A stretch of 43,320 bases of DNA from Gallionellaceae bacterium (GTDB lineage: Bacteria; Pseudomonadota; Gammaproteobacteria; Burkholderiales; Gallionellaceae), in assembly GCA_008080515.1 (NCBI GenBank), contig VIKH01000011.1:1-43320 (forward strand), given 5' to 3'. Within the stretch, counting starts at the first letter, position 1, and each line of letters starts with the position of its first letter. Under the pieces are notes generated by a model. The model saw only the letters and a program-made list of their open reading frames with translations. It searched no databases and was not told where the DNA came from. The position numbers were made by a program, and so were the translations under genes. Below are positions 3,676-40,253 of this stretch, one piece after another.

Positions 3676-3708
3676 CCGTTTCATTACCTTAATCCCGGAG
3701 ATTTTTCC

Positions 3709-4425: not shown

Positions 4426-4429
4426 TCCT

Positions 4430-5329: not shown

Positions 5330-5335
5330 GAATGT

Positions 5336-5412
5336 TGGTGGGTCGTCGCGGACTCGAACCGCGGACCAAAGGATTATGAGTCCTCTGCTCTAACCGACTG
5401 AGCTAACGACCC
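5336..5412 (-). tRNA. tRNA with CAU anticodon (elongator Met or Ile2)
   Basis: The reverse strand gives a complete 77-base cloverleaf: acceptor stem GGGTCGT/ACGACCC, D-arm GCTC/GAGC, anticodon loop CTCATAA with anticodon CAU, T-loop TTCGAGT, discriminator A and encoded CCA. CAU is shared by elongator methionine tRNA and by isoleucine-2 tRNA, whose C34 becomes lysidine. The TTGGTC variable region and TTAGCTCAG resemble tRNA-Ile2, but I cannot decide. It is not the initiator type: it has a normal 1-72 pair and no GGG/CCC anticodon stem. It lies 12 bases after the rpoD stop. Confidence 0.93.
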
Positions 5413-5424
5413 GTAAAGCTTTTT

Positions 5425-7356: not shown

Positions 7357-7449
7357 AATGATGTGGTTTCCGTTCCCGTAAGTTTGTCGGGGAGGTGTTG
7401 CCGAAAAAAAGTAGCGGATTATACCCGATTTTTCAAAATTTTCAGCGGC

Positions 7450-9276: not shown

Positions 9277-9357
9277 CCCGGTTCTCGCATTGTGGCGGCA
9301 GCGCGCCAGTTAACCCGGTATGGAGAAACGGCCCGCAGCAACTGCCGCAAATGGAAA

Positions 9358-9807
9358 TCAGCAGTTGGACAGGCCAGACTTGACTTGCGCCGAAACCTTG
9401 CCCATATCAGCGCGGCCTGCCAGCTTGGGCTTGAGCAGCGCGATCACCTTGCCCATTTCCTGCGGCGATTTTGCGCCGCTGGAGGCGATGGCTTCGGCCA
9501 CAGCGACTGCCACCTCGGCATCGCTCATCGGTTGCGGCATGTACGATTGCAACACGGATATTTCAAATTTCTCGGCATCTGCCAGATCCTGCCTGCCAGC
9601 AGTTTCAAACTGGCTGATGGAATCGCGACGCTGCTTGATCATCTTGTCTATGATCGAGATTACATCGGCATCGGTCAGGTCGATGCGCTCATCCACCTCG
9701 CGCTGTTTCATGGCGGCGAGCAGCAACCGGATGGCGCCGAGGCGCGCCGTATCCCTGGCGCGCATCGCCGTCTTCATGTCTTCGCTGATTTTCTGTTTCA
9801 GGCTCAT
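9358..9807 (-). CDS. yqeY: GatB/YqeY domain-containing protein
   Basis: This 149-residue stand-alone YqeY protein is related to the tRNA-binding tail domain of GatB amidotransferase. It starts MSLKQKISEDMKTAMRARD and has RLLLAAMKQREVDER and the EMGKVIALLKPKLAGRADMGKVSAQVK helix-hairpin region typical of the family. Its precise role is unknown; a link to tRNA or translation is assumed from the GatB relationship. The position between rpsU (40 bases) and dnaG (81 bases) is the standard betaproteobacterial order and supports the call. Confidence 0.9.
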   Translation of the reverse strand: MSLKQKISEDMKTAMRARDTARLGAIRLLLAAMKQREVDERIDLTDADVISIIDKMIKQRRDSISQFETAGRQDLADAEKFEISVLQSYMPQPMSDAEVAVAVAEAIASSGAKSPQEMGKVIALLKPKLAGRADMGKVSAQVKSGLSNC

Positions 9808-9847
9808 GGTAAGCGCGCGGCGGCAACCGCTGCGGGGCAGCCGGAAA

Positions 9848-10060
9848 TCAATACAGCTTGGGGGGCAACACCTGGCTGCGCAGGCGCTTGTAGTGGCGCT
9901 TTACGGCGGCGGCCAGCTTGCGTTTGCGTTCTGCGGTGGGCTTTTCGTAGAACTCGCGGGCGCGCAACTCGGTAAGCAGACCGGTTTTCTCCACCGAGCG
10001 CTTGAAACGGCGCATGGCCACCTCGAACGGCTCGTTTTCCTTAACTCGCACAGTTGTCAT
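9848..10060 (-). CDS. rpsU: 30S ribosomal protein bS21
   Basis: This 70-residue basic protein of the small ribosomal subunit takes part in translation initiation. The sequence [21 protein letters not shown] and the Lys/Arg-rich tail [16 protein letters not shown] are diagnostic. The ATG at 10060 is the family start; a longer in-frame reading that begins 51 bases upstream overlaps the promoter. It is the first gene of the rpsU-yqeY-dnaG-rpoD cluster. Confidence 0.95.
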
Positions 10061-10095
10061 GAGCAAACTACCCTTTACAAAAAAATGAGGGCGCG

Positions 10096-10124
10096 ATTCT
10101 ACCAAAGTCAACCTTGTTCCACAA
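10096..10124 (-). promoter_or_regulatory. Sigma-70 promoter for the rpsU-yqeY-dnaG-rpoD cluster
   Basis: On the minus strand TTGTGG (10124-10119) is followed after 17 bases by TAGAAT (10101-10096), a good housekeeping promoter match. The predicted start site is near 10089, giving a leader of about 30 bases before rpsU. It lies in the short gap between lptG and rpsU, the expected place. Confidence 0.6.
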
Positions 10125-10144
10125 CTCCCTCAAGCCGGCAGGAA

Positions 10145-11221
10145 TTAGCGTCTTTCCGTCCACCACAGCATGGTTGCCGCCAGCAGCAGGAACAGCATGG
10201 GCATCGCCATGGCGCTCAAGAAAGGATGCCACTCGTTCAGCGCGCCCAGGCTGCCGAACAGCCGCCCGACAAAATGGAAGGCCAGCCCCAGCACGATACC
10301 GGCAAACACCTTGGCGCTGATCCCGCCCTCGCGCCGGTGGTGCGCCGCAAACGGCAGGGCCAGCAACATCATTACCAGCACCGCCAGCGGGTACAGCAGC
10401 TTGTTCCACATGGCAATTTCGTAGCGCGCGGTCTTCTGCCGGTTGTCGCGCAGATGCTGGGTGTACTGGTACAGGCTCCAGGCCGACATTTGTTCCGGCA
10501 GCACCAGCAACACGCCCAGCAGATCCGGATTGAGCGCGGACATCCATTCCATGCTGGCCAGATTGCTTACCGCCACCCCCGCCTTGCCGAACCGTGTCTG
10601 CGTCACCTCTTCCAGGTTCCAGCGGTTTTCGTCCACAAAGAAGGCGCGCTTTGCCGCCACGATGGAGCGCAAGTGATAGCTCTCGTCGAACTCGTAAATG
10701 CTGACGTTCAGCAGCGAGGTGTCCGGCAGCACGTTTTTGGCGTTGACAAAGCTGCGCGCATCTTTCGCCCACACGCCGGAGCGGAACTCTTTCAGCGTTA
10801 CCTCGGCATTCTGCGCCTTGAGCCTGAGGCTCTGCGCCAAGCGCTCGCTGTATGGTGCCAGCACGTCCCCGCACAGGTAGCTTAACAGCACCAGCGGCAA
10901 CCCTATCTTGAACAAGGCGCCCACCATTTGTTGCAGCGATGCGCCGGAAGCGCGATAAACCGTCAGCTCGGAATTGGCCGCCATCTGCACCAGCGCAAAT
11001 ATGGAGCCGATCAGGATAGCCACGGGGAACAGGTCGTATATGTGGCTGGGCAAGGTCAGCAGCACGAACAGCAGCACATAGCCCAAGTTGTAGCTTCCAT
11101 GGCCCATCATGCTCAGTTCGTGGATCAAATCCAGAAAAGCGAACAGCATCAGCAGCGCGGTGAAAACCAGCGCGATGCTGGCGTAAATCTCGCGTGCCAT
11201 ATATCGCGCCAGCAGCTTCAC
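10145..11221 (-). CDS. lptG: LPS export ABC transporter permease LptG
   Basis: This 358-residue inner-membrane protein of the YjgP/YjgQ family pairs with LptF and the ATPase LptB to extract lipopolysaccharide and pass it to the LptC-LptA bridge. Membrane helices are visible near residues 8-35, 55-80 and 95-120, and three more lie after about residue 270. Between them is a roughly 150-residue periplasmic beta-jellyroll domain. I start it at GTG 11221 (VKLLARYMAREIYAS), which overlaps the lptF stop in a GTGA arrangement and gives the usual family length; an alternative is ATG 11200. It is in an operon with lptF. Confidence 0.92.
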   Translation of the reverse strand: MKLLARYMAREIYASIALVFTALLMLFAFLDLIHELSMMGHGSYNLGYVLLFVLLTLPSHIYDLFPVAILIGSIFALVQMAANSELTVYRASGASLQQMVGALFKIGLPLVLLSYLCGDVLAPYSERLAQSLRLKAQNAEVTLKEFRSGVWAKDARSFVNAKNVLPDTSLLNVSIYEFDESYHLRSIVAAKRAFFVDENRWNLEEVTQTRFGKAGVAVSNLASMEWMSALNPDLLGVLLVLPEQMSAWSLYQYTQHLRDNRQKTARYEIAMWNKLLYPLAVLVMMLLALPFAAHHRREGGISAKVFAGIVLGLAFHFVGRLFGSLGALNEWHPFLSAMAMPMLFLLLAATMLWWTERR

Positions 11222-12357
11222 TTCCGGAGCCTCCGCAAGGAAAACACCGATAGCCTGCGGAAGAAAAACAGCAGCATCAGCACGAACATCAGCGCGTGGA
11301 TGCCGACCAGTCCGGCCACCGGCCCCATTTTTTCCTGCCCCACCCAGGAGTTGGTCACGCTGATCATGTTGTTGTAGATCATGTAAATCACCAGCGCCAT
11401 GATGAGGTTGAGCGAGCGCCCGGCGCGCGGGTTGACGAAGCTTAACGGGATCGCCAGCAACGACAGGATCAGCGCGCTGAGCGGCAGCCCGATCCTCCAT
11501 TCCAGGTCCGCGATGTTCCAGGGAGTGGGGTCTTGCAGCAGGTACAGGGTGGAAAGGGTTCTGGGCAAGGCGCTTTCCTTGCGTGCTTTTACCTCTTCTA
11601 TGCGCATGGCGTAGCGTTCGAACTCGACGATCTTGTAGTCGCGCTGGCCGGGTGTGCCTTCGTAGCGTGTGCCGTCCAGCAACACCAGAAAACGGTCGCC
11701 GTTGGGCGCGGTTTCCTGCAAGCCCTGCTTGGCCACCATGATGCCGGTTTTGCCGTGCTGCACCGACTGGACGAAGATATTGCCGACGCGGTTCTTGCCG
11801 ACTTCCACGTTCTCGATGAAATACACCCGGTCATCCTGCTTGGATTCGCGGAAGGCGCCGGGGGTGGCGGCGGCCACCTCGTCGCGGCTGTTCAACCGGT
11901 GTTTGAACTCGTCCGCCTTGTTCAGCGCCCACGGCGACAATACCAGGCTCAACAGCGCGATTACGCCCACCACCGGCAGCGCGTATCCCAGCACCGGGCG
12001 CACCCACCGCGTCAGGCCGATCCCGGAACAAAACCATACCACCATTTCGCTGTCGCGGTAGCTGCGGGTCAGCGTCAGCAGCACCGACAGGAACAGGCTG
12101 AGTGAAAGCAGTACCGGCAAATAGTTCAGCGCACTGAAACCCAGCAGCGCCAGCACCCCCTCCACCGCAAGCACACCGCTGACCGATTCGCCGAGCAGGC
12201 GGATCAACTGGGAGAGGACGACAATCCCGAGCAGGATGGAAAACACCAGCAGCCCCATGCCGGCAAATTCGCGCACCAGCGCCTGGTGGAAGAGCGTGGC
12301 TCGCAACGGCCCTTGCCGCTTTGACTTTTGCCTGTCAGTTTGAGGATAATCCGGCAT
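11218..12357 (-). CDS. lptF: LPS export ABC transporter permease LptF
   Basis: This is the second permease of the lipopolysaccharide transporter, with six predicted membrane helices around a periplasmic jellyroll domain. Recognisable parts are FHQALVREFAGMGLLVFSILLG, LPVLLSLSLFLSVLLTLTRSYRDSEMVVWFCSG, and the C-terminal helix pair with NLIMALVIYMIYNNMISVTNS. The start is uncertain. ATG 12357 adds 17 charged residues not typical of the family and lies under the pepA promoter. A TTG at 12306, just before the FHQAL homology, is a good alternative. The gene is divergent from pepA and its stop overlaps the lptG start. Confidence 0.9.
   Translation of the reverse strand: MPDYPQTDRQKSKRQGPLRATLFHQALVREFAGMGLLVFSILLGIVVLSQLIRLLGESVSGVLAVEGVLALLGFSALNYLPVLLSLSLFLSVLLTLTRSYRDSEMVVWFCSGIGLTRWVRPVLGYALPVVGVIALLSLVLSPWALNKADEFKHRLNSRDEVAAATPGAFRESKQDDRVYFIENVEVGKNRVGNIFVQSVQHGKTGIMVAKQGLQETAPNGDRFLVLLDGTRYEGTPGQRDYKIVEFERYAMRIEEVKARKESALPRTLSTLYLLQDPTPWNIADLEWRIGLPLSALILSLLAIPLSFVNPRAGRSLNLIMALVIYMIYNNMISVTNSWVGQEKMGPVAGLVGIHALMFVLMLLFFFRRLSVFSLRRLRK
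12321..12350 (+). promoter_or_regulatory. Sigma-70 promoter for pepA
   Basis: TTGACT (12321-12326) and GATAAT (12345-12350) are separated by 18 bases on the plus strand. They lie 52 bases before the pepA ATG, which itself has a GGAAGG ribosome site. The promoter overlaps the N-terminal codons of the longest lptF reading frame. Confidence 0.6.
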
Positions 12358-12401
12358 TTAGTACAGTGCGAGCTTGCGAACTTTTTTGGAAGGAAAACAT
12401 A

Positions 12402-13900
<1,499 letters not shown>

Positions 13901-14123
13901 TTCGGCCACGACCCTTTTAATTGCTTTTAATTGCACCGTGCTGAAGCCGCCCAACTATATGTCACGCCCGCCGGGCTGACGTAAGATTTACGGAACGGCA
14001 GGAAGCTCACAGTCAGTCAACTGCGTTCCCCCGGATATAATCCGTTCATCCGCGTCACAGCGCGTCGCAGCCGAAATGTATCTTTCAGTTTTCGACCGCA
14101 CAGCGTGACGCCATGAACACAAC

Positions 14124-14224
14124 CGTGCTTATCCGGTTGTCTCCCAAGGCACACCACCTGTAGGGTTCAGCTATTAAAAAACCACTGCCTATAGTAGGTC
14201 GTGGGTGTTAACCGGATAAGCACG
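14124..14224. repeat. Long spaced inverted repeat upstream of the WYL regulator; possible operator
   Basis: CGTGCTTATCCGGTT (14124-14138) recurs in perfect inverted form at 14210-14224, and the match extends to CCCA after four mismatched bases. The arms are separated by 71 bases that contain a -10-like TATAGT (14190-14195). Each arm has GAACACAAC nearby in direct orientation. A second, shorter inverted pair, GCGTCAC (14052-14058) and GTGACGC (14105-14111), lies upstream. The rest of the gene-free stretch 13901-14254 shows only a TATAAT at 14036-14041. Confidence 0.6.
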
Positions 14225-14254
14225 AACACAACATCCAACCCACCGGGCGACACC

Positions 14255-15262
14255 ATGCCATCCCAGAACGATACGCAACTGCGCCAATGGGCGATGCTCC
14301 GGCGCATCCCGCAACAACCTCGCCAGATAACCGCGCTTGAGCTCACCGGGCGTTTGGAATCCGAAGGGTTCGAGGTCAGCAAGCGCACCGTGGAGCGCGA
14401 CCTGCACTCGCTTTCCGGAATCTTCCCGCTGATTGCCAACGACCGCTCGCGCCCTTACGGGTGGAGCTGGAGTAAAGATGCCGAGGCGTTTGCCTTGCCC
14501 GCCATGTCGCCGTTACAGGCTTTAACGCTGGAGCTTGCGCGCGACCATTTGTCGGCCTTGCTGCCTGCCAGTCTGCTCGGAACACTTGCCCCGTACTTCA
14601 AGTGCGCCGATGGCGTGCTATCCAGCGGAGATGGCGTGAAGAAACTGGCGGGCTGGCGCAAGAAGGTTGCCATCGTGCCGCCCAACCAGCCTCTGATCCC
14701 GCCGGACTACCCGGATGGAATCATCGAGGCGGTGCATTCCGCCTTGCTGTCCGGGCAGCAACTGGAAATCAGCTACGCCTCGCGCGAACAAGGTGAAACC
14801 AAAACCTATCCCGCCCATCCGCTGGGCATCGTGCAGCGCGGCGCGGTCACCTATCTGGTCGCCACGTTGTATGGCTACACCGACATACGCTTGCTCGCCG
14901 TACACCGCATCCGGTCGGCGCAGGTATTGGACCAACCCGCCAAAGCGCCGAAAAAATTTGACCTGGCAGAATACATCCGCCAAGGAGCGTTCGGCTTTGA
15001 AGAAGGCGGCGAAATCAAGCTGGCGGCGCGCTTCACCGCACCCGCCGCCGAACACCTGCGGGAAACGCCGCTCTCTCCCGACCAACGGATTGAGCCGGAC
15101 CAGGCGGGCTGGGTGCGCGTAGAAGCCACCGTGCCGGGCACGGCCCAGCTACGCTGGTGGCTGCTGGGTTTTGGGGATCAGGTGGAAGTGCTGGATCCTG
15201 CAACCTTGCGGGAAGAGTTTGTAGCTATCTCTCAGTCGCTGCATGGCATTTATCACAGATAG
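14255..15262 (+). CDS. HTH / WYL domain transcriptional regulator
   Basis: This 335-residue protein has an N-terminal winged helix-turn-helix (about 10-65: LRRIPQQPRQITALELTGRLESEG, then VSKRTVERDLHSL). A helical linker follows, then a WYL (Sm-like) domain about 160-230 with LEISYASR and the ligand-type motif YPAHPLGIVQRGAVTYLVATL. The C-terminal WCX-type extension ends LREEFVAIS. Such regulators bind ligands such as nucleic acids or nucleotides and often control defence islands (the BrxR/CapW type). ATG 14255 is chosen for homology; an extension to 14201 would run through the inverted repeat. It opens the accessory island and may control it or only itself, which is inference. Confidence 0.85.
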   Translation: MPSQNDTQLRQWAMLRRIPQQPRQITALELTGRLESEGFEVSKRTVERDLHSLSGIFPLIANDRSRPYGWSWSKDAEAFALPAMSPLQALTLELARDHLSALLPASLLGTLAPYFKCADGVLSSGDGVKKLAGWRKKVAIVPPNQPLIPPDYPDGIIEAVHSALLSGQQLEISYASREQGETKTYPAHPLGIVQRGAVTYLVATLYGYTDIRLLAVHRIRSAQVLDQPAKAPKKFDLAEYIRQGAFGFEEGGEIKLAARFTAPAAEHLRETPLSPDQRIEPDQAGWVRVEATVPGTAQLRWWLLGFGDQVEVLDPATLREEFVAISQSLHGIYHR

Positions 15263-15288
15263 CGCCCTGGGTGAAATCTGTAGCCAGT

Positions 15289-15651
15289 TCAGACTATTTT
15301 CTTCACTAGGAAATGGTAAGCAGCAACCATCTCCGAATCCAGCTCTCTATCCATCCCCTTAATCGAAAAATCAGTAACAGCGCCTTTCTGGTCCCCATTG
15401 CCCGGATATGGCGAAGTGCCAGCTCTTACAACACCACCCTTAATATTCAAAATGGCATCGCCATTACCAGGGTATGGGGAATTCCCTTTCCTGATGACGT
15501 CATTCTTTACGTTACCTTGAGCATCACCATTGCCAGGATATGGTGAGTTTCCTTTCCTGATAACGCCATCTTTTAAGTTCCCCAGCACACTCCCACTGCC
15601 AACCGACGAGCCATCCCTAATAATTCCATCTTTATAATTTGCGGTTAACAT
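15289..15651 (-). CDS. Small repeat protein with five 20-22 residue units (beta-flower-like)
   Basis: This 120-residue protein has units starting at about residues 5, 25, 47, 69 and 91. The best-preserved form is N-x-K-x-x-V-I-R-K-G-N-S-P-Y-P-G-N-G-D. Units 2-4 are near identical, also at DNA level (a 66-base period), while units 1 and 5 are degenerate. Five short Gly/Asp-turn units fit a five-bladed beta-flower or small propeller-like fold; I recall similar 'five-fold beta-flower' families, but this is not verified. There is no signal peptide or membrane helix. The ATG at 15651 is set by a strong AAGGAGG 8 bases upstream. The function is unknown. The gene is AT-richer than the housekeeping genes around it. 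Confidence 0.7.
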   Translation of the reverse strand: MLTANYKDGIIRDGSSVGSGSVLGNLKDGVIRKGNSPYPGNGDAQGNVKNDVIRKGNSPYPGNGDAILNIKGGVVRAGTSPYPGNGDQKGAVTDFSIKGMDRELDSEMVAAYHFLVKKIV

Positions 15652-15835
15652 TTTTGAATCCTCCTTGACTTGAATAGATAGTAGATTAACAACCATAAAA
15701 CTTGCTGACCTACATTTACATTATAACAATTGCTCAGTAAACCATTGGCAATACAATCTCGTATTCGTTGTTATTGCCAGATGCCCAGCAACGCCAAAGG
15801 CACGCTATTTTATTATGCGCAAAGGTGCTGTCAAT

Positions 15836-16003
15836 TTAACCAGCACGCAAATCTAGGCCATTGGTCATCACCACAAAAACTTGCTTCCGGTTGAAATCCT
15901 CCTCCGATAACTCAACACCAGATTTCTCCTTGTGCGCCACTTTGAGCGATTGGGTTGGGCCGGTTGCCTTTTTGAACCAGGCACCCATCTCGGGGTATTT
16001 CAT
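15836..16003 (-). CDS. Possible small protein, 55 residues, unknown
   Basis: This reverse-strand frame starts MKYPEMGAWFKKATGPTQSL and ends TNGLDLRAG. It lies 29 bases after the stop of the unrecognised gene at 16033-16728 in the same direction, so it could be a third member of that operon. No convincing ribosome site is visible, and I do not recognise the sequence. It may instead be a remnant of a longer gene. The rest of the stretch 15652-16032 shows no other gene; an AT-rich section at about 15660-15770 could hold the promoter of the repeat-protein gene. Confidence 0.3.
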   Translation of the reverse strand: MKYPEMGAWFKKATGPTQSLKVAHKEKSGVELSEEDFNRKQVFVVMTNGLDLRAG

Positions 16004-16032
16004 TGCGCCGTAACGCCTTTGTCAGGTAGCGG

Positions 16033-16728
16033 TTATCGCTCGATCAAAAAATAACCCGCCTCGCAAATCGCATCGAATACCTGGATGCATTCGTCCACAA
16101 ACCCCTCAAGCGTGCCGAATGCCGCAATGTCGTCTGGCGTAAGCCGCCGCCCAAAGAACAGCCAATTCTGGAGTATATTCACTTCGGTTTGCCACACCTT
16201 TTCTGCCGTAACCGCCCCCTTGAATGCTCCGGTTGGCTCCGCATAGCCACCAAGACTACCGAAGGTGGCATCGAACAACTCAGGCTCGACAAACACTTTC
16301 TCGTAAAACGCTTCATATTCATCGACGCACTCAGTAATGATCCCGTGCGCATTGCGAAAATCAAAACCCAGCCCGATGGATACACCCCAAGGGTGAGGAA
16401 ATATAACGCTCGGTGGGTAAGCATCGAACCCGACATGGAGCTGTTTCCTGCCTGATCGCCCCTGGCTGTAGCTGTACACTCGATGCGGGAACACACGAAA
16501 ATCCTTCTCGAACCGGTAACGGCCATTGCTGCGCTCGGCGAGCATGGCCACGAAATCGCGGGCCAGCCCGGCAAAAGCGTCGCTGATCCTGCCTGCCGCG
16601 TGCAGCTCTGACACACGCAGGCGGAAGCCGTCGCTTGGCGGCATCAGGATTGAATCGTATTCATTCAATTTGACGAGCGCATCCAGCTTTGCGAGCTCAT
16701 TGAAAAACGCGCTATCGAATGTATTCAT
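16033..16728 (-). CDS. Unrecognised protein, 231 residues
   Basis: I do not recognise a family. The protein is soluble, with no signal or membrane segment, and alternates helical and aromatic-rich beta regions. Notable stretches are FRVFPHRVYSYSQGRSGRKQ followed by LHVGFDAYPPSVIFPHPWGV, and EYEAFYEKVFVEPELF. The many Tyr, Phe and Pro residues and a conserved-looking GRSG-K-Q-LHVGF suggest a binding or enzymatic core. It starts 12 bases after the stop of the tandem-repeat gene upstream, so the two are almost certainly co-transcribed and perhaps act together. The location in a cluster of nuclease-type genes hints at defence or an immunity function, but this is inference only. Confidence 0.7.
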   Translation of the reverse strand: MNTFDSAFFNELAKLDALVKLNEYDSILMPPSDGFRLRVSELHAAGRISDAFAGLARDFVAMLAERSNGRYRFEKDFRVFPHRVYSYSQGRSGRKQLHVGFDAYPPSVIFPHPWGVSIGLGFDFRNAHGIITECVDEYEAFYEKVFVEPELFDATFGSLGGYAEPTGAFKGAVTAEKVWQTEVNILQNWLFFGRRLTPDDIAAFGTLEGFVDECIQVFDAICEAGYFLIER

Positions 16729-16740
16729 TTGCCTATCCCT

Positions 16741-17505
16741 TCAACATTCTTCTCCTATCGCGCACATCCACTCGCGCAAGACACTCTGAAGCAGCGAGCA
16801 GCACTGAATAAATCTGTCTGGCCTGCCTATCGGTGGCTCTTGCGTGATCGTTCCGTCCGGCAACTGGTAATACAGCCTCATGCGTTGAACCTCCGCACGG
16901 GAGGGTGGAAATTGGGCAAGACATTTATCAAATTCATCGTTAACGCATGCATCCAAGCGGGCTATGTCATCTTCAGCTACCCGGTACCCGGCTACCCCCA
17001 CCATGAACATCGCAGTCAGTTTGTTGATCCGTTCCGCCGGGATGCTGTATCGCTTCCCCTCTATGGAACAAATCCTGTTTGACTTACCGGCAGGCTCTTC
17101 CTTTTCAAGTCCTGGCTCGATGCCCTGAAGAGTCGCCATCGGAACCCATGAGAACATCCAGTTACATTCGATATGGCTTGCTGGGAGACCCAATGGTGGA
17201 GATAGCGAAACCGAGCGGTCTGGCAGTTCAAAATACAGCCTGCTGCTTCGCACCAGCACCTTTTCAGGGCGCTGCAAAAGCAATGGGATGGTTTTTCCAG
17301 CCAGCCGCTCAAGCCGCAAATGCACCAGCTTCGCTTCCGTATTCACGGCCAGCATCTGGAATTCGGCTGCCGCGTCTTTGTCGGCGGCAGCAATGTCCTT
17401 CTCGGTAACAAAGCCGCTCTCGACCAGCGCCACTCCCGTAATCCGGGTCTCAATCAGCTCCGATTCCGGAAACTCGAATTGCTTGCCATCCATAGTGAAA
17501 ATCAT
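16741..17505 (-). CDS. Unrecognised protein with internal duplication, 254 residues
   Basis: The protein consists of two similar halves (about 1-115 and 142-254). MDGKQFEFPESELIETRITG aligns with IEGKRYSIPAERINKLTA. RLYFELPDRSVSLSPPLG aligns with RLYYQLPDGTITQEPPIG, each followed by a Cys (IECNW / IQCCS). This is a clear intragenic tandem duplication of a roughly 110-residue domain. No family is recognised, and no signal peptide or membrane helix is seen. A GAGGCG ribosome site precedes the ATG. The gene is divergent from 17704 and heads a reverse operon with 16033-16728. Confidence 0.7.
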   Translation of the reverse strand: MIFTMDGKQFEFPESELIETRITGVALVESGFVTEKDIAAADKDAAAEFQMLAVNTEAKLVHLRLERLAGKTIPLLLQRPEKVLVRSSRLYFELPDRSVSLSPPLGLPASHIECNWMFSWVPMATLQGIEPGLEKEEPAGKSNRICSIEGKRYSIPAERINKLTAMFMVGVAGYRVAEDDIARLDACVNDEFDKCLAQFPPSRAEVQRMRLYYQLPDGTITQEPPIGRPDRFIQCCSLLQSVLREWMCAIGEEC

Positions 17506-17703
17506 GCTGTTCGCCTCGCTTGATTGCCGTGGTTTTATAAACAGCCTGTATTAAGCGCCCCGAACGCGACGCCGCGTGTCGCATTCGGGCAGTATGATCG
17601 CTGCCGCATGAGGGGTTTTTTGGAATTCACATTTAGCGCGGAATATTTTTCGGCGCTTTATTGTGTATAGTGGCTTTCGACAAAAAATACAGGCGTAGAA
17701 ATA

Positions 17704-18072
17704 ATGGCACGGCCAAAAGTCGGCATCTTCTTTGTCGTAAACGGCGACCTGATTATTGATGCGGTTCCACTTGAGCAGGGCGAGCGCTATGGCGAAACGG
17801 TCGGCTTCGGCGGGCACCATGATTACTGGCTGGCGCTTGCCCCCGTAAACCCTGCGGAGCAGATGTTCAAGAGCCACGCCTACGATTACTTCCCGCGCGG
17901 CAGAGTGGTCTATTTCAAGAACGCCGGCAGCTTCAGGCTTTATGCCGACCGCTGCATAAAGAAGGCCGACATCGAGAAGGTTGCTGCGACCTTCCAGTTG
18001 CCTGTGTACCGGTTGGCGCGGGACGAGCATTACCAGTGCTCAAGCTGTAATTCGGAACATGTTGATATTTGA
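17704..18072 (+). CDS. Unrecognised protein, 122 residues; a 3' homologue lies at 19320-19478
   Basis: This soluble protein begins MARPKVGIFFVVNGDLIID and has VGFGGHHDYWLALA near residue 40. It ends with a CxxC pair (HYQCSSCNSEHVDI) that could be half of a metal site. The region from about residue 70 to the end is repeated, with changes, 1.25 kb downstream after the restriction-like gene. A -10-like TATAGT sits at 17666-17671. I do not recognise a function. The gene is divergent from the operon at 16033-17505. Confidence 0.65.
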   Translation: MARPKVGIFFVVNGDLIIDAVPLEQGERYGETVGFGGHHDYWLALAPVNPAEQMFKSHAYDYFPRGRVVYFKNAGSFRLYADRCIKKADIEKVAATFQLPVYRLARDEHYQCSSCNSEHVDI

Positions 18073-18112
18073 TTGGTGTGAAGTATGGTGCTGGCGAATC
18101 AGCCGTATTGAA

Positions 18113-18226
18113 ATGGTCTATCAACTGAAACACAAAACATTTGAACCTTGCCCCTTTTGTCACGGAATTGCGGCTTTGGTCTTCGCTGGCGTCCGCGCCG
18201 GGCGCCCCTTATCTTTCATTCGTTAG
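18113..18226 (+). CDS. Possible 37-residue peptide with PCPFCHG motif
   Basis: The short frame reads MVYQLKHKTFEPCPFCHGIA and stops just before the restriction-like gene. The Lys-x-Pro-Cys-x-x-Cys pattern resembles the start of small Lar-type (restriction alleviation) zinc ribbons, but the second Cys pair is missing. It could be a remnant or chance, and no clear ribosome site is seen. Confidence 0.2.
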   Translation: MVYQLKHKTFEPCPFCHGIAALVFAGVRAGRPLSFIR

Positions 18227-18241
18227 ATTTCTCTAGAACCC

Positions 18242-19303
18242 ATGGATATCACCGGAAAGACGATTTGGCAGCAAGCTGCGGGAGATACAGATCGGAACTA
18301 CTCCGACCTTTGTCTAAAGTGGGATGTTATCTTGAACGGCCCCGGATACGCTGGCCCGTGGCCCGACTGCGAGAAGCCTCTCCGGAGTGACGGGTGGTCT
18401 TCCCGCAAGACCGCTGATCTAAGGCGCTTTGCCGAAGAAATGAAGGATGGCGATCTTGTCGTTCTCCGTATTGGAACTGCAACTGTGCTTGGTGTTGGGC
18501 AACTTGTCGGAACCTATGAATGGCGCGACGAGTTCGGCGACATAGACGGTTGGGATCTCCAGCATGTTCGCAGAGTTCGCTGGTTATGGGTGGACCGAAA
18601 CAGCCCCAAGACGTTTGATACTTACGCGCTCAAGCAGGGCGACACAACGCAAAAGCTGAACGAGGGGCCAGTAACAGACTGGCTCTCAAACCTTCCGGTA
18701 AATGACGATGCCTTGTCCCGTTCGCTCGTGGAATTGCCGATGCAAGAACAGCCAAATGACATCGGCGTCACCGAAATATCCGAGTTCCTCTTCGATCACG
18801 GTGTCGCGAGCTCCTCAATTACCGCGCTGCTCAACGAAATTGGTGAGCTAACTCGCATTGCCAAGTGGTATCAGCGTGCGGGTAAGCCATCTGAGCATGA
18901 GACGGTAGCGTATCTGGTTGTGCCGCTGCTTCGCGCTCTTGGCTGGACGCCCCAGCGCATGGCCGTTGAGTGGAATCATGTCGACGTTGCGTTGTTTGAA
19001 CAGCTTCCGCGTAGCGATGAAACCCTACGCGTTGTGGTCGAGGCGAAGAAGATGGACAACTCGTGCCTTAGTGCGATGCCCCAGGCAATGTCGTACTCGG
19101 ATGGAAAGGCCGCATGTCACCGCCTGATCGTTACTGATGGCCTCCGATATGGCGTCTACACGCGAATCAAAGCAGAGCCGTTCCGTCTCTATGCATATCT
19201 GAACCTAACTCGGTTGAGACATGACTATCCAATATATGAGTGTAACGGCGCCGAAGAAGCTCTTCTAGCAATGGCTCCAGAGTGGAAGCCAAGCGAAATC
19301 TAA
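18242..19303 (+). CDS. Putative modification-reader plus PD-(D/E)XK restriction endonuclease
   Basis: This is a 353-residue protein. The N-terminal part (about 20-120) has DGDLVVLRIGTATVLGVGQLVG and the strand-rich HVRRVRWLW, which resembles an EVE/PUA-like modified-base reader. The C-terminal part (about 205-340) looks like the nuclease domain of type I HsdR subunits: E218/E220, D248 in NHVDVALF, and E267-x-K269 in VVVEAKK form a PD-(D/E)XK site, followed by QAMSYSDG and LIVTDGLRYGVY. Together this suggests an enzyme that cuts modified DNA (type IV-like). The nuclease call is good and the reader call moderate. The gene is framed by GTTAGAT (18222) and ATCTAAC (19298, over the stop codon) and by homologous copies of a 122-residue gene. 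Confidence 0.65.
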   Translation: MDITGKTIWQQAAGDTDRNYSDLCLKWDVILNGPGYAGPWPDCEKPLRSDGWSSRKTADLRRFAEEMKDGDLVVLRIGTATVLGVGQLVGTYEWRDEFGDIDGWDLQHVRRVRWLWVDRNSPKTFDTYALKQGDTTQKLNEGPVTDWLSNLPVNDDALSRSLVELPMQEQPNDIGVTEISEFLFDHGVASSSITALLNEIGELTRIAKWYQRAGKPSEHETVAYLVVPLLRALGWTPQRMAVEWNHVDVALFEQLPRSDETLRVVVEAKKMDNSCLSAMPQAMSYSDGKAACHRLIVTDGLRYGVYTRIKAEPFRLYAYLNLTRLRHDYPIYECNGAEEALLAMAPEWKPSEI

Positions 19304-19319
19304 CGATTTAGAGGCAAAT

Positions 19320-19478
19320 TTCAAAGAGCCCGGCAGCTTCAGTCTTTACGCCGACCGCTGCATAAAGAAGGCGGACATCGAGAAGGTTGCCGCGACGTTC
19401 CAGTTGTCAGTGTGCTGGCTGGCGCGGGACGAGCACTACCAGTGCGCGGGGTGCAATGCTGAGTATGTTGACGTTTAG
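19320..19478 (+). pseudogene. 3' fragment homologous to the 17704-18072 gene
   Basis: The open segment encodes FKEPGSFSLYADRCIKKADI and continues to a normal stop. It matches about the last 52 of 122 residues of the 17704-18072 product, including the CxxC end (CAGCNAEYVDV). Differences are spread over the segment, many at third codon positions, so it is a diverged relative, not a fresh copy. It has no start codon or 5' part and begins 17 bases after the restriction-like gene. Confidence 0.75.
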
Positions 19479-19574
19479 GTCTGCGGGGGAAAATAGCTAA
19501 CAAATGTATCATCTACTCTCTGCTCAAGGCTTAGTGGTCTGATATAGACGGTTGCACAACTAAAAGGAATAACA

Positions 19575-20783
19575 ATGGACCAAAAAGTAGATCAACTACT
19601 CGATGAAGTGACATTCAAAATCGGAACCCTTCACCAAGCCAGAAAATATTTCTCTGCCCAACTTGCGCCGGAATTCAGGATTTTTGACTACCTGCGCACG
19701 GATGAAATGGGGCTGTCGCGGTGCATCGCAAGCCTGCTCGACCCCAAAGGAAAACACGGGCAGGGAAGTGTATTTTTAGATGCCTTCCTGAAAACTATTG
19801 GTTCGGCGGCAGCCTGGGCGACGAACACCGCGAAATGCGAAGTAAGTAAAGAACGGCAAGCTAATGGAAAACGGCGTATTGACATCTATTTGAATTTGCA
19901 GAATGGTGTCATAGGCATCGAGAATAAGCCATGGGCAAGCGATCAGGACCATCAACTGGCAGACTATGCAGCCTTTATCAAGAAAGATGCCGGAAACAGA
20001 TTCTGGCTGCTTCTCTTTCTGAGCAATCGCGACCCATCAGATGACAGTATCAAGCCTGACGAACGCAGGAAAATGGAACAGGACGGGCAATTCGTCAGGC
20101 TCAACTATGCAGAGCTTATTGAGTGGCTTGATATTTGTGCAGGTAACTCAAGAGCCGCAACTGTGCGAATATTTATCGAAGAGCTTGCACAATTTGTCCG
20201 CGAGGATATCAACGGAGAATTAGATATGTCAGACGAGGTTGAAGTGCATAACGCAATTCTTAAATCAGCGGAGAATCTTGGCTCTGCCTTCCAGATTTAC
20301 AGTTCAATGGATAACCTTAAACGAAAATTGCTTAAAAAATTCCAAGGCAACCTTAAGGAAAAACTCAAGTTACATAATATGGAGCTTGATTGGGGATTAG
20401 AAGGTTGGCAAGCCTACAGCGGCTTCATTATCCAGTTTGATGAGACCCAACAATCTCTCAACCTTCGATTTGAATTTGATCAGGCAAATTTGAATGGATT
20501 TTTATGGGGAATCAGAAGACGTAATGAGGACTATAACAATCCACTCGTATGGGATGAGGTTAATAAATTAATGAGCGCCGATTTTGGCTCTGCAAAGTCA
20601 TCAAAATGGTGGCCATGGTATTCGGAATTGCCGAATCAAGAGTTTCATGAGGAAATGAAGAACTGGAGGACCAGCGCGGAGCCGTGGATATCGATAGAGA
20701 ATGAAAGTCTAGTCGAAAAAATATGCAATCTAGCTCTTCGTGTGCGAGAAGTGTTTAAGAACGCCCCCCACATATTGCGCTAA
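19575..20783 (+). CDS. PD-(D/E)XK nuclease superfamily protein (PDDEXK_4-like)
   Basis: This is a 402-residue protein. The N-terminal half carries a PD-(D/E)XK fold: DEMGLSRCIASLLDPKG (E44), then RIDIYLNL (D103), then GVIGIENKPWA (E116-N-K118) and QLADYAAFI, the order seen in the PDDEXK_4 family. The C-terminal half (about 230-400) is rich in charged helices and tryptophans (WGLEGWQAYSGF, SSKWWPWYSEL) and may bind nucleic acid or a partner. Base composition is clearly more AT-rich than the neighbours, which suggests acquisition by transfer. Family members are common in defence and mobile regions, but no specific system is established. Confidence 0.75.
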   Translation: MDQKVDQLLDEVTFKIGTLHQARKYFSAQLAPEFRIFDYLRTDEMGLSRCIASLLDPKGKHGQGSVFLDAFLKTIGSAAAWATNTAKCEVSKERQANGKRRIDIYLNLQNGVIGIENKPWASDQDHQLADYAAFIKKDAGNRFWLLLFLSNRDPSDDSIKPDERRKMEQDGQFVRLNYAELIEWLDICAGNSRAATVRIFIEELAQFVREDINGELDMSDEVEVHNAILKSAENLGSAFQIYSSMDNLKRKLLKKFQGNLKEKLKLHNMELDWGLEGWQAYSGFIIQFDETQQSLNLRFEFDQANLNGFLWGIRRRNEDYNNPLVWDEVNKLMSADFGSAKSSKWWPWYSELPNQEFHEEMKNWRTSAEPWISIENESLVEKICNLALRVREVFKNAPHILR

Positions 20784-20812
20784 AGTTATTTGCCAACAGC
20801 ACCAACTGCCCC

Positions 20813-20941
20813 ATGAACAACCCACAGTTCTGGATTCAAAATAATCTGTTTGATGTCCCGCAGCGAGGCGGCAGTGACACGTGCGACCGTATCGAGTTGG
20901 GAGCAAAAATGTTAAATGCCCCGATAGGCGTCGGCCTGTAG
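20813..20941 (+). CDS. Possible 42-residue peptide before the DUF1643 gene
   Basis: This open frame starts MNNPQFWIQNNLFDVPQRGG, contains DRIELGAKMLNAPIG, and ends at TAG 20941, 17 bases before the DUF1643 start. It could be a small upstream gene, a leader peptide or a decayed fragment. I do not recognise it and see no strong ribosome site. Confidence 0.3.
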   Translation: MNNPQFWIQNNLFDVPQRGGSDTCDRIELGAKMLNAPIGVGL

Positions 20942-20958
20942 TTGCAAAGGCCGAGCCA

Positions 20959-21510
20959 ATGCGCTACGAACACATTGATGGCGTGAAAGTGACAGCGCAA
21001 TTCGCTTGGGAAGGCGATTTACGTTATCGCTACCGGCTGGAGATCGTCTTGAATGATGCTGCGCCCACGGGAAAAACCGTCTGTGTGGCTATGCAGAACC
21101 CGAGTTATGCGGGGGAGGATGTGGCGGACAAGTCGGTTCAGTTCATGGAGAAAGTGGTATTCAAGAAAGGGCTGGCCGAGTTTGAAGGCGCGCACCGGCT
21201 GATTGTGGTCAACCTGTTCGCTTTTATCCAGACAAACAATTTTCAAGGGCTTCCGCACGAGGTCGGCTCGCTCAACGACGCTGCCGTCAGAAAAGCGGTC
21301 GAAGAATCCGAGATAGTGATTCTCGGATGGGGCGCCTCGAAGCGATTCGAGGAACGCAAGGCATTTGTCCTCGGCCTGCTTGGCGGGATGCCGCATAAAA
21401 CGCTATTCAAAACCAGAATGCACCCCTCGCGCGGATGTTACGAAAACTTTATTCAGCCTTTCTCAATCCGCGAGACCTGCACTCGCGGGAGCGATCCGCT
21501 TCAAACCTGA
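20959..21510 (+). CDS. DUF1643 domain-containing protein
   Basis: This 183-residue protein has the DUF1643 pattern. RYRLEIVL is followed by VCVAMQNPSYAGED (where the family often has a short NPS motif), HRLIVVNLFAFIQTN, and EIVILGWGASKRFEERK toward the C-terminus. The biochemical role of DUF1643 is not established; it is common next to restriction-modification and phage genes. I choose ATG 20959 (after an AAAGG ribosome site), because an upstream reading from 20881 adds unrelated residues. It is 176 bases downstream of the AT-rich nuclease gene. Confidence 0.8.
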   Translation: MRYEHIDGVKVTAQFAWEGDLRYRYRLEIVLNDAAPTGKTVCVAMQNPSYAGEDVADKSVQFMEKVVFKKGLAEFEGAHRLIVVNLFAFIQTNNFQGLPHEVGSLNDAAVRKAVEESEIVILGWGASKRFEERKAFVLGLLGGMPHKTLFKTRMHPSRGCYENFIQPFSIRETCTRGSDPLQT

Positions 21511-21809: not shown

Positions 21810-23275
21810 ATGAACAACACGCAACCAAAACGCCACGGCCTTTCCAAATCGCGCATCCTGCTGCATCGCCAGTGCCCGAAGCGCCTGTGGCTGAAGGTGT
21901 ATCGCCCGGAACTGGAGGAAATAGATGACGGGAGCCAGTCGCGCTTTGCCACCGGCGTTCATGTCGGCGAAATCGCGCGGCGGCTTTTTCCGGAAGGGGT
22001 GCTGGTTGATGGCGACGACCTGGGCCAAGCCATCAGTGATACGCAAGCAATTCTGGCCGGAGAAAAACGCCCGGTTTTCGAGGCGACGTTTCAATCCGGC
22101 GGAGTGCTAGTTCGCGCCGACTTGTTGCTGCCCGCAAAGAACGGCTACCGCATGGTGGAGGTCAAACAATCCGCCAGCGTAAAGGATTACCACCTGGCCG
22201 ATGCGGCCATTCAAAGCTGGGTTGCGCGGCAAGCGAAACTCCCGCTGGCCAGCGTGGAAATTGCGCATATAGACAGTTCGTTCGTCTATCCCGGCGGCGG
22301 CGATTACCGGGGCTTGTTCCGCTACGCCGACATCAGCGAACCGGTTGCGGCCATGGAAGCCGAGGTTCCAGGCTGGGTAAGCGCGGCGCGTGAAACATTG
22401 TCCGGCGAGGAGCCGCGCATCGCTCCGGGCGCTCAATGCGAGACCCCGTTTGAGTGCCCGTTTTTTGGCTACTGCTCTTCGCCTGCTAGCGCCGAGGATG
22501 GTTATCCGCCTGAAATTCTTCCTTACGGCGGCGCGTTGGCCGCCATCTTGCGCGGCGACGGGTACACCGATTTGCGCGATGTGCCGGAAGGCCGCTTGGG
22601 CAACATAAAGCACCGGCGCGTCTGGCGTGTTACCAGGAGCGGGCAAGCCGAGCTGGACCCGGAAGCAGGAAAGCTGATTGCCGCCCTCCCTTATCCGCGC
22701 TATTACATTGACTTTGAAACCATCAATCCCGCAGTGCCGGTTTGGGCGGGCACGCGCCCTTATATGCAGGTGCCATTCCAGTGGTCGTGCCATGTTGAAA
22801 CGGCAAACGGGGCGATGTCGCATCGCGCGTTTTTGGCCACCCGCGCCGACTTTTCGCGGAAAGCCTGATGGAAGCGGTTGGCGCTGACGGCCCGATCCTT
22901 GTTTACAGCGCCCCGTTTGAGCGGAGCCGGTTGCAGGAGCTTGCCGGGTATTTCCCCGATCTTGCGCCCGCGCTGCAAGCCGCGATTGACCGCATCGTTG
23001 ATCTGCTGCCGATTGCGCGCGAGCATTACTATCATCCGGAAATGCGCGGGTCATGGTCTCTCAAAGCCGTGTTGCCGACAATTGCGCCAGAGCTGGATTA
23101 CGGCAATCTGGAAGTGGCAGATGGCGGCATGGCACAGGAAGCATTTGCAGAAATCATGCAACCCGAAACATCGCCGGAACGCCGCCAGCAATTACGCGCG
23201 GCGCTGCTGTTGTATTGCGAACGGGACACGCTGGCAATGGTGCGGATCGCGCATTATTTCGAGAGCGGCGCTTGA
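21810..23275 (+). pseudogene. DUF2779 protein: RecB/Cas4-like nuclease plus DEDD exonuclease, frameshifted
   Basis: The N-terminal part (1-230) is RecB/Cas4-like: R..CPKRLWL (C22), D104 in VRADLLL, E117-x-K119 in VEVKQ, and Cys 210, 216 and 222 in a CETPFECPFFGYC block that with C22 could hold an iron-sulfur cluster. From about 298, YYIDFET begins a DEDD-type exonuclease domain. The frame stops at TGA 22866-22868 after DFSRKA. The expected continuation (MEAVGADGPILVYSAPFE and onward, with a DTLAMV end) runs in another frame from ATG 22868 to 23275. The break is at the TTTT run near 22850. The TGATG overlap would allow re-initiation. Mutation, sequencing error or true two-part translation are all possible. 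Such proteins are predicted nucleases of unknown pathway. Confidence 0.75.
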
Positions 23276-37416: not shown

Positions 37417-37574
37417 GCAGTGCAATTATATCGGACGCGGCAAAGAAACCGGTGCCGGGATTTTCTTCCAAAATTACAGCGGCAGATTTATTGCGACGCA
37501 TTCTGTCGTACCCCTGCCTTAACATTCCTTCCCATCACATTGCGCCCCGTTCACGGAGGCAAGGAGAGGAAAGA

Positions 37575-39470
37575 TTGGAAGAGACTATAGAAACAGTAGA
37601 AAAATGGGCTGCGGAAGTCTGGAAAGAGCCGCCGGTTTTCAAGCCGGATAACGATGGCGGATCGGGCACGCTGAAATTCAAATATGCCAGCAAATGCGGC
37701 GATCTGGACGGTTATCTGGAGGCCGGCAACTCCGGGGACACGATCGTCCTGCACCTGTATGCGCCGGGCGCTATTCCGGAAAGAAAACTCGCGCCGGCGA
37801 TGGATGCCGTTGCCGCGATCAATCAGGGCATGTCCGTCGGGAACGTCGAAATCGTGCGCAAGAAAGAGAACTGGTTCCGGTTCCGCGCCGGCATGAACGT
37901 GGAAGGCGGCAAACTTTCAACCGCCATGCTCGACAACCTGCTGGACCTGGCCGTCGCCACCATCGAGCAATACTATCCGGCGATGCTTTCCATCTGCTTT
38001 GCAGGCATGGCCCCCAAACGGGCGATTGCCGAAGCTGGCGGGGAAAAACCCGGCGATGACTGGATAGGCGATGAAATCGCCGGGGCGGATGCAGGCGAGC
38101 TGCTGCCGTCTGGCGAGGCCGCGCCATCACCCGTCTTGTCCGCGTGGGCCAAAGAATTGGCCGATGCCATTTCCGGTGAAGCGGACACCAACACCTGGCG
38201 GGCTATAGGCTGCGGTGCAGTGGTCACGCACGACGACATGGATCGCGCCCGCGAGATGCTGCGCCGGGCCGCAACCGAAGCCAACATGCGCTTCGTGCGC
38301 ATCGAATCGGGCGACGTGCTGGATATTCCGCTGGGCGCGGCAGACCCGTTCGCAAATGCCGCGCCGATACTGGTCTATCTGGAGCCGGGCCAATGGATGG
38401 GAAAGATAGGCGATGGCGCAAGCAGCGAAGAAGCGGACAGAATCCGCGGGTTCAGAATGTTGCTTGCCGCATGTATGGGCGCGTTTGACCCGGAACATCC
38501 GGTAATCTATGCGACTTCCGCATACTCGCTCGAGGATGTCTCGCCTGCCCTGCGCAAGCGCGGGTTTTTTGATCGCTACTTCCACGTTCCGAAATTGCCC
38601 CCGGACATACTGGGCAAGGAATTCATCGCCCTGTTCGGCCCGGATAATTGCGATGCCTCGATTACCGGCTTTCCAGGCAAGGTGGGAAAGCTGCTCGGGA
38701 ACGAATTTGACAGCGGGCGCCTGCGTAGTCTTGCGGCGCTGAACACGGCCAGGCTGGTCAAGCGCGAAAGCCGCAAGCTGAACTTCCTCGACCTGGTGGA
38801 TATGGCGGCAGCCGGGCTGGGGGATTCCGACGAAGCGGCCAGAGACAACGAAGTGCTGCTGCGCCACACCGCAATCCACGAGGCGGGGCACGCGGCGATG
38901 GCCCTGCTCGACTCCAACGGCAAGAATGCCCCCGAGTATTCCACCATCGTTGCGCGCAAGGATTTCAATGGCGTGGTGGTCGAGTCCATGTCCTACAGCT
39001 TTGCCAGGGGAGGCTTGTTCACCTATGCGGACTTTCGCCACAAGATTCGCGTCTCGCTGGCCGGGCGCGCGGCCGAAGAAGTTGCCCTGGGCCTTGACTG
39101 GATTTCCGACGGATCAAGCGCCGACCTGGAAAGCTGCTCGAAGCTGGCTTCCAGAGCGTTTGCTTTCTGGGGTTTCGCGCCCGGCATGGGCGATGCGGAA
39201 ACTTCCGCCAGCAACCTTGCCGTGATAGTGGGCGATGCCAGCCCCAGCGAAAACCTGCATAACGAAACCCTGGTGCGCAAATTCCTGGCGGACGAATACC
39301 GGGCCACCGTCAAGACTCTCACCGGGAATCGCGCCCTGCTCGATGCCATCGCAGGCCGATTGATCCGGGATTCGATGCTCGACCAGGGCGAGATCGCGGA
39401 ACTGTATGCGGCCCATCTCCCGGAACGGCTCTCTACAAGAACCGCCGCGCGAACTCGCCGGGAGCGATGA
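37575..39470 (+). CDS. FtsH-like M41 metalloprotease with YbjN-like N-terminus and degenerate AAA domain
   Basis: This is a 631-residue protein. Residues about 1-140 resemble the YbjN fold. About 170-410 follow the AAA+ order of FtsH, but the P-loop is replaced (VVTHDDMDRAREMLRRAATE) and Walker B reads ILVYLEPGQ. Sensor-1 and arginine-finger-like parts remain (VIYATSAYSLEDVSPALRKR, then GFFDRYF). The M41 peptidase is intact: HEAGH at 435-439 and D517 in SDGSSADLES as the likely third zinc ligand. No membrane helix is seen. I start it at TTG 37575, 4 bases after an AGGAGAGGAAAG ribosome site; the upstream extension to 37452 is AT-rich and unlike protein. It converges on the PIN gene, overlapping by 38 bases. 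Confidence 0.75.
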   Translation: MEETIETVEKWAAEVWKEPPVFKPDNDGGSGTLKFKYASKCGDLDGYLEAGNSGDTIVLHLYAPGAIPERKLAPAMDAVAAINQGMSVGNVEIVRKKENWFRFRAGMNVEGGKLSTAMLDNLLDLAVATIEQYYPAMLSICFAGMAPKRAIAEAGGEKPGDDWIGDEIAGADAGELLPSGEAAPSPVLSAWAKELADAISGEADTNTWRAIGCGAVVTHDDMDRAREMLRRAATEANMRFVRIESGDVLDIPLGAADPFANAAPILVYLEPGQWMGKIGDGASSEEADRIRGFRMLLAACMGAFDPEHPVIYATSAYSLEDVSPALRKRGFFDRYFHVPKLPPDILGKEFIALFGPDNCDASITGFPGKVGKLLGNEFDSGRLRSLAALNTARLVKRESRKLNFLDLVDMAAAGLGDSDEAARDNEVLLRHTAIHEAGHAAMALLDSNGKNAPEYSTIVARKDFNGVVVESMSYSFARGGLFTYADFRHKIRVSLAGRAAEEVALGLDWISDGSSADLESCSKLASRAFAFWGFAPGMGDAETSASNLAVIVGDASPSENLHNETLVRKFLADEYRATVKTLTGNRALLDAIAGRLIRDSMLDQGEIAELYAAHLPERLSTRTAARTRRER

Positions 39471-39843
39471 TGGGATATTGCCCGGATAACCCGTCGAAAT
39501 CCCCGTCGCCGGTTATCAGCCAATCGGACTTGCTGGCGATCAGGGTTGCCAGCAAATGGTTGTCGTTCGGATCGGCGGGAACATCGGCCACGATGTCGGC
39601 AATATGCGCCATCTCTCCTTCAAACCGCAGCAGCACAATGTAGCGTGAGATAAGCTCGTCATCCCAGCCCAGCCGCCTCCTGATCTTCGGGTAGGCCAGC
39701 ACGCGGGCAATCTCCTCCAGCATCGGCTCGGAAAAAACCAGCCCGAAATTCCGCTTGCGCCATGCCGCGACGATTCTGCCGGGCGTGCTGTCCGGCAACA
39801 TCAGCCCGGACAGCAACACATTGGTATCGAGGACAACGCGCAA
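39433..39843 (-). CDS. PIN-domain toxin of a type II toxin-antitoxin pair
   Basis: This 136-residue PIN-fold ribonuclease is of the COG1569 type. The acidic centre is visible: VLDTNVLLSGL at the N-terminus (D6), E near 43 in SEPMLEEIARVL, and PNDNHLLATLIASKSDWLIT followed by GDGDF toward the C-terminus. It probably cleaves RNA (target unknown) and is neutralised by the protein encoded 2 bases upstream. Its 3' end overlaps that of the M41-like protease gene on the other strand. Confidence 0.85.
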   Translation of the reverse strand: MRVVLDTNVLLSGLMLPDSTPGRIVAAWRKRNFGLVFSEPMLEEIARVLAYPKIRRRLGWDDELISRYIVLLRFEGEMAHIADIVADVPADPNDNHLLATLIASKSDWLITGDGDFDGLSGQYPIIAPGEFARRFL

Positions 39844-39845
39844 GA

Positions 39846-40115
39846 TCAGCGCTTTCTTGCAGCGGCAACGGCCTTTGCGATTTCCTTCTCGGCAACCTCG
39901 ACGGGTTCGCCCTGATAGGCTTTTGCCAAATCTGAAGTCAGGCGGTCAAACTCGGCGCGCATCATGCGTATCTTGTCGAACAGCGCGACATCCACTATCG
40001 CGGCGACAGGCTTGCCGCCCTTGGTGATGAGCACCTGATCCTGCCGGTATTGAATCTCGTTCAACAATTCGCCCAGGTTCTGCCGGACAGTCATCGCGGT
40101 CGCTTCTCGAATCAT
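39846..40115 (-). CDS. Phd/YefM-type antitoxin
   Basis: This 89-residue protein has the Phd/YefM N-terminal DNA-binding fold: IREATAMTVRQNLGELLNEI followed by QYRQDQVLITKGGKPVAAIVD. A C-terminal helical tail rich in Lys and Glu probably wraps the toxin. A GAGG ribosome site favours ATG 40115; a GTG at 40124 is in frame. It precedes the PIN toxin by 2 bases, the usual order, and is expected to repress its own operon. Confidence 0.87.
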   Translation of the reverse strand: MIREATAMTVRQNLGELLNEIQYRQDQVLITKGGKPVAAIVDVALFDKIRMMRAEFDRLTSDLAKAYQGEPVEVAEKEIAKAVAAARKR

Positions 40116-40253
40116 GGCAATCACCTCAATTGATATGGTCAGTGCAGTCTATTCCCATCTTGAACGCTTGTCCAACTCCGATTGGCGCGACTCAACCTGT
40201 CGCAGCGCCGTGGACAATGGGCCTTGTGCCGGCTGCGGCGCAACAGCGGCAGA

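Follow-up and report, generated by a model that had tools for sequence, protein, structure and literature searches.

FtsH is the standard M41 peptidase, dependent on an AAA motor and a membrane anchor, and its proteolysis normally requires ATP. Two described systems have lost part of such a machine. As the available part of its description reports, Meiothermus LonC (MtaLonC) has a dead AAA-like domain, forms a hexamer and degrades unfolded substrates without ATP (PMC3391209). The chloroplast FtsHi pseudo-proteases are M41-AAA proteins with one dead half, and in the accessible sections of the papers they keep the P-loop and have lost the zinc site (PMC11266112, PMC9020784). We report here on a gene in a 43,320-nucleotide stretch of contig VIKH01000011.1 of a Gallionellaceae bacterium (the window), whose product belongs to a clade that is the mirror image of FtsHi. 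With MtaLonC it shares a non-functional AAA-like domain, a conserved protease domain and the lack of a membrane part, and LonC may serve as a model of how it works; the LonC protease, however, has the Lon catalytic dyad, which is not homologous to M41, and LonC still binds nucleotide, as far as the text available goes (PMC3391209). No Lon family is listed by Pfam for the window protein, the protease of which is an M41 domain with HEXXH. We propose, with a probability of roughly 60%, that the protein belongs to a separate and conserved clade of soluble M41 peptidases whose FtsH-type AAA domain has turned pseudo-ATPase, and which would act as ATP-independent zinc proteases of accessory conflict loci.

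An earlier sequence-only reading had described the gene product (Table 1) as a soluble FtsH-like protease with a YbjN-like N-terminus and a dead ATPase. Both families are found in the one protein above their Pfam cut-offs, M41 with 70.3 bits (cut-off 29.9) and YbjN (PF10722) with 27.1 bits (cut-off 22), and no AAA family is listed for it by Pfam; the NCBI FtsH model TIGR01241 covers residues 294-606 with 64.6 bits, far under its cut-off of 600. The TTG start recurs at the equivalent place in L033, the closest relative. The linker is 23% identical to that of L033, against 60-81% for the folded domains, and residues 158-182 have a pLDDT under 50 in the predicted structure. Two M41 matches are present in the window's genome (183 contigs), this gene and a canonical membrane FtsH which lies on a separate contig and spans two open frames there. 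A PIN toxin and Phd/YefM antitoxin pair occupies 39433-40124 on the minus strand, and the last 38 bases of the M41 gene also lie within the PIN frame.

Table 1. Coordinates of the M41 gene and its parts in the window.
Feature	Coordinates	Strand	Basis or remark
Whole gene, 631 aa, TTG start	37575..39470	+	GGAGAGG at 37563-37569 ahead of start
N-terminal part (head)	37575..38009	+	
Variable linker, residues 146-180	38010..38114	+	low pLDDT, low identity to L033
Pseudo-AAA domain with lid, residues 181-425	38115..38849	+	
Lost Walker A site, residues 218-226 (THDDMDRAR)	38226..38252	+	alignment to canonical FtsH
Lost Walker B site, residues 265-271 (ILVYLEP; Asp to Glu, catalytic Glu to Pro)	38367..38387	+	
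M41 zinc peptidase domain, residues 426-615	38850..39419	+	
HEAGH, two zinc ligands and catalytic Glu, residues 435-439	38877..38891	+	12/12 clade members
Third zinc ligand, Asp517	39123..39125	+	alignment to FtsH; 12/12 clade members

Relatives were found at similarity cut-offs of 1e-12 to 1e-60, so P-loop-bearing intermediates could fall below them. Three clear clade relatives were identified among ten loci: L033 (Gallionellaceae MAG, 67% identity, full length), L034 (Myxococcales MAG, 35%, full length) and L035 (unplaced MAG, 44%, headless). The other members came from genome sets that overlap between searches, so that the following counts are not additive (ranks are given relative to the window): L045 from the window's family, with carriers in 3 of 151 genomes (counting the window's own and apparently that of L033); L064 and L065 from its order, 3 of 399 (window included); L150, 2 of 200 (the genome of L064 included); and L156 to L159, 6 of 186 genomes of one genus (those of L064 and L150 included). 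Three more sets of 195, 80 and 369 genomes each contained one match to the AAA part, always the known carrier, and their remaining matches (3, 1 and 2) were to the head only, in short YbjN-type frames without M41. The low carrier counts mean that the clade is rare and patchy; it is part of the accessory genome. The 12 members group as one clade (support 0.986) in a 39-row M41 tree, which implies a single loss of the motor with the peptidase retained through the divergence that followed (median identity within the clade is 38% in M41 and 23% in AAA-N). The neighbouring branch (support 0.715) is formed by the Polynucleobacter proteins L036 and L037, which resemble the clade in having lost Walker B and kept HEAGH, L036 also being without a strongly hydrophobic stretch, but differ in a half-kept Walker A (GKHGMGKL), in AAA domains above the Pfam cut-off (41.2 and 31.5 bits) and in a zinc-ribbon-like start (below cut-off) in place of YbjN. 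With this half-broken AAA on the next branch, loss of the motor looks old and stepwise rather than a recent decay. L036 (4987-6900) and L037 (4987-6921) thus make up a second, less advanced dead-motor line.

In comparison with canonical FtsH (PF00004 and PF01434, TIGR01241) the clade has the same M41 fold, the same HEXXH with a distant Asp and the same AAA fold and lid, in equal order, but it lacks the hydrophobic membrane stretch and the motor motifs, and some members carry a YbjN head. Alignment of the window protein to canonical FtsH places unconserved residues at the Walker A position, converts the Walker B 'FIDE' to 'YLEP', and shows the pore loop to be deleted and the sensor-1 Asn and the first Arg of 'GRFDR' to be gone. 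Walker A, the Walker B Glu, the sensor-1 Asn and the first Arg finger are each found in 0 of 12 clade members, and GK[ST] is absent anywhere in all 12. The dead ATPase is thereby borne out; homologues with an intact Walker A were looked for and none was found among the 12 members, all of which combine P-loop loss with a retained HEAGH. A P-loop is located 210-385 residues ahead of HE[AS]GH in 78 of 82 distinct other M41 proteins, this control set being the longest HE[AS]GH frame per locus from L004-L032, L036-L041 and L069-L148 with identical proteins merged (28, 6 and 48); GxxxxGK[ST] alone is too loose for such a count, as the pattern fits the FtsH linker too. The four controls without a P-loop are L036 and L037, with their half-broken motif, and L117 and L126, which are cut by contig ends.

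Some traces of the motor are left. The second Arg of the finger motif is retained in 10/12 members and one of the 12, L159, carries the Walker B Asp, so that nucleotide binding of some kind is possible; W274, just after the former Walker B, is near-invariant (11/12). The AAA part aligns with the AAA domains of L036, L037 and L041 over 195 columns (hhalign 96%, E 1.6e-9). L041, from an alphaproteobacterial MAG, consists of two adjoining AAA-M41 frames (4609-9638) with intact P-loop cores (GPPGVGKT and SPPGFGKT). The whole-protein structure model is moderate (pLDDT 75.7, pTM 0.49), with two M41 loops (460-480 and 539-554) under pLDDT 50, and six of the ten rows of the alignment behind it are real AAA proteins. 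Folds were predicted for the AAA, M41 and head domains, including an AAA alpha/beta core with lid; the relative placement of the domains is not usable (whole-chain rmsd about 17). Peak 19-residue hydropathy on a simple scale is 0.69-1.85 in the 12 members versus 2.00-2.34 in three canonical FtsH controls, which argues against an N-terminal membrane helix and agrees with the soluble protein suggested before. One alternative is that the protein is a dead-motor subunit in a ring with an active ATPase, be it canonical FtsH or another AAA protein, to which it would lend a chaperone-like adaptor and protease sites, in an FtsHi-like manner. The canonical membrane FtsH of the host, the retained AAA fold and second finger Arg, and the large translocon-linked chloroplast complexes in which FtsHi is held, according to the accessible part of PMC11266112, would all fit; however, hydropathy gives the clade no membrane helix, the first Arg finger, sensor-1 Asn and pore loop are lost, the clade is patchy (3/151 and 6/186 genomes) where an FtsH-type match occurs in 52 of 61 relatives of the window's genome (itself included), and no FtsH-linked gene was seen beside clade members. 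Such a mixed ring we regard as unlikely.

The peptidase site, which had been called intact from HEAGH and D517, is so throughout the clade, the zinc ligands H, H and Asp and the catalytic Glu436 being invariant in 12/12 members. The M41 domain is above its curated cut-off in all nine of the 12 members scanned (window, L033-L035, L045 and L156-L159), and it is the slowest-evolving part of the clade proteins. For the one pair of window and L033, dN/dS by Nei-Gojobori-type counting is 0.36 in the head, 0.52 in the linker, 0.26 in AAA-N, 0.18 in the lid and 0.16 in M41, i.e., this pair is under purifying selection. A decaying FtsH copy, a pseudogene in progress, would explain a lost P-loop and an insertion sequence nearby, but not identical losses in 12/12 proteins of one clade, long open frames and a folded-domain dN/dS of 0.16-0.36; it is extremely improbable, and the relatives and dN/dS led us to rule it out. 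Since FtsH proteolysis is normally ATP-dependent, a protein without the motor could have lost proteolysis too, and might then be a double pseudo-enzyme which binds zinc and is a scaffold or sensor only. Pseudopeptidases in many metallopeptidase families, as reported in the available sections of PMC11266112, and the low-confidence loops of the M41 model are compatible with this, whereas the invariant Glu436 and three ligands and the slow evolution of M41 are against it, and we find it quite improbable.

The YbjN-like N-terminus is matched both by sequence and by predicted fold. The head is fused in five of the 12 members (window, L033, L034, L045 and L156); it scores above the Pfam YbjN cut-off in the first four, and in L156, for which Pfam lists no YbjN at E 0.001, it was found only by own-built profiles (48.9 and 52.5 bits). 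As the head is optional, the defining core of the clade is the pseudo-AAA domain with M41. The members of the YbjN family or TY-chaperones (E. coli YbjN, AmyR, DR1245) differ in being stand-alone binding proteins without an enzyme domain, and LonC is not known to carry a YbjN head. L150 (locus L151) is headless and has YbjN-type genes nearby. The next gene on the strand (8518-9123) is weakly recognised by head profile yb1 (20.8 bits, E 1.8e-5) and unlisted by the narrower yb0 at E 0.5; another gene (5101-6051) has 24.1 bits to Pfam YbjN (cut-off 22) and 18.7 bits to yb0, and is unlisted by yb1. A head that is fused in some members and adjoining in another weakly suggests a working link between head and peptidase. 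Near the other six headless members no YbjN in trans was detected, in L060, L066/L067 and L068 at E 0.5, nor in L157, L158 (3.9 kb only) and L159 at E 0.1.

The neighbourhoods of the clade members point to conflict or defence islands, a setting that the earlier reading had not brought up. At least one gene of a conflict type (defence, restriction, toxin-antitoxin or other) is present in 12 of 12 stretches (3.9 to 43 kb), a raw count in which the partners differ; such genes cluster anyway. Downstream in the window are the Phd/PIN pair and an IS21. L033 is accompanied by McrBC and a helicase with an RNase_H_2 domain, L034 by HEPN_STY4199 and DUF4407, and L035 directly downstream by a DUF4011 helicase, cut by the contig end, with 1055.7 bits to the PADLOC candidate PDC-S37. 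L045 overlaps by a single base the end of a helicase gene of UvrD type that includes a PD-(D/E)XK domain, itself behind a PD-(D/E)XK gene (labelled AddAB-like here), and is followed by DUF433/DUF5615. The locus of L064 has DUF2779, WYL, a gene with 68.5 bits to PD-T4-3 and, by blastp, a type I restriction R relative; that of L065 has a type I restriction R gene about 6 kb upstream, that of L150 also DUF2779, and that of L156 two proteins with TIR, NPHP3/NACHT-type and TPR domains, and SIR2. L157 has WYL and DUF2779 directly downstream and type I HsdM and HsdR upstream, while about 160 bases from L158 a divergent gene cut by the contig end, with no Pfam hit, is 48.8% identical over 287 residues to the DUF2779 protein of L157. 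L159 lies in an island (1641-19800) with DUF4407, caspase, patatin and a DUF4062-NACHT protein of 1661 aa. The DUF4407 proteins of this locus and of that of L034 (Myxococcales, L059) are 35% identical over 418 residues (blastp). All-against-all blastp of 226 frames places DUF2779 near four of six members of one genus (L064, L150, L157 and L158) in differing arrangements; it may be a nuclease, to judge from weak Cas4 and RNase_H_2 similarity alone. This recurrent neighbour is also found in the window, in two open frames (21810-23275, plus strand; parts of PF11074, 64.1 and 66.2 bits) about 14 kb from the M41 gene. The window has a lower G+C (0.50-0.54) at 14201-21510, where genes for a WYL regulator (14201-15262), a PDDEXK_4 nuclease-type protein (19575-20783) and DUF1643 (20881-21510) are located. 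WYL regulators have been reported alongside phage-defence islands (PMC9122601), and YbjN-like 'TY-chaperones' have been predicted in ADP-ribose-linked immune systems (PMC9503650), in the parts of these papers available. PADLOC gave no model match at E 0.001 for the window, L034 and L045 proteins, the three of 12 members scanned.

The same islands could reflect horizontal transfer only, with the protein acting as a protease that clears damaged or unfolded proteins in general and needs no ATP, as was suggested for LonC, the plan of which is equal in the available description (PMC3391209). This explanation, which is possible though we lean against it, gains from some mobile neighbours (the IS21, and terminase-like genes in L066/L067, recognised by eye), but patchiness and the recurring DUF2779, WYL, restriction and NACHT/TIR neighbours fit an accessory conflict role better. 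A phage or plasmid origin of the window gene was dropped, as none of the tblastn matches listed for plasmids (20 of 157 matched records) or phages (20 of 31) reached 80% coverage of the query. Viral contigs gave no match with query A1; with query A7, the best 80 of 87 stretches contained an HE[AS]GH frame in 70 and none in 10. One viral-contig M41 protein (L126, 3-1532), cut by the contig edge, has a long N-terminal part with no AAA visible.

Our preferred reading is of a soluble M41 protein which is most likely a zinc protease with no need of ATP. Its pseudo-AAA domain, which may still form a ring, would scaffold or gate the peptidase chamber. The head, of YbjN/type-III-chaperone fold and either fused or, in one relative where the match is weak, the product of an adjoining gene, would bind an unfolded segment or a partner protein and deliver the bound polypeptide to the zinc site; the whole would probably serve as a protease under regulation in a module for phage defence or another kind of conflict. 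More tentatively, and as a possibility we would not yet call probable, the clade may be the protease arm of an undescribed anti-phage conflict module, in which a TY-chaperone head, whether part of the same chain or supplied in trans, would seize a polypeptide from a phage or a partner and pass it on, ATP-free, to a pseudo-AAA-gated M41 that activates or destroys it, partnered with DUF2779- or helicase-type nucleases and in some loci under WYL control.

The architecture had been judged uncharacterised, and no description of a YbjN-FtsH/M41 pseudo-ATPase was found in the literature searched, which had most subscription papers outside its reach. The folds are already known and there is a Lon precedent, which makes the clade a variant on known themes; no such precedent in M41 was found in that literature, and the dead-motor, live-protease plan in M41 is what appears to be new here. 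By losing the motor and the anchor and keeping the peptidase site under selection, the clade suggests that an M41 peptidase can be run by another input, perhaps a chaperone-like head. Its parallel in an unrelated protease is LonC and its mirror image the FtsHi pseudo-proteases, and it offers a candidate for proteolysis in phage-defence islands.
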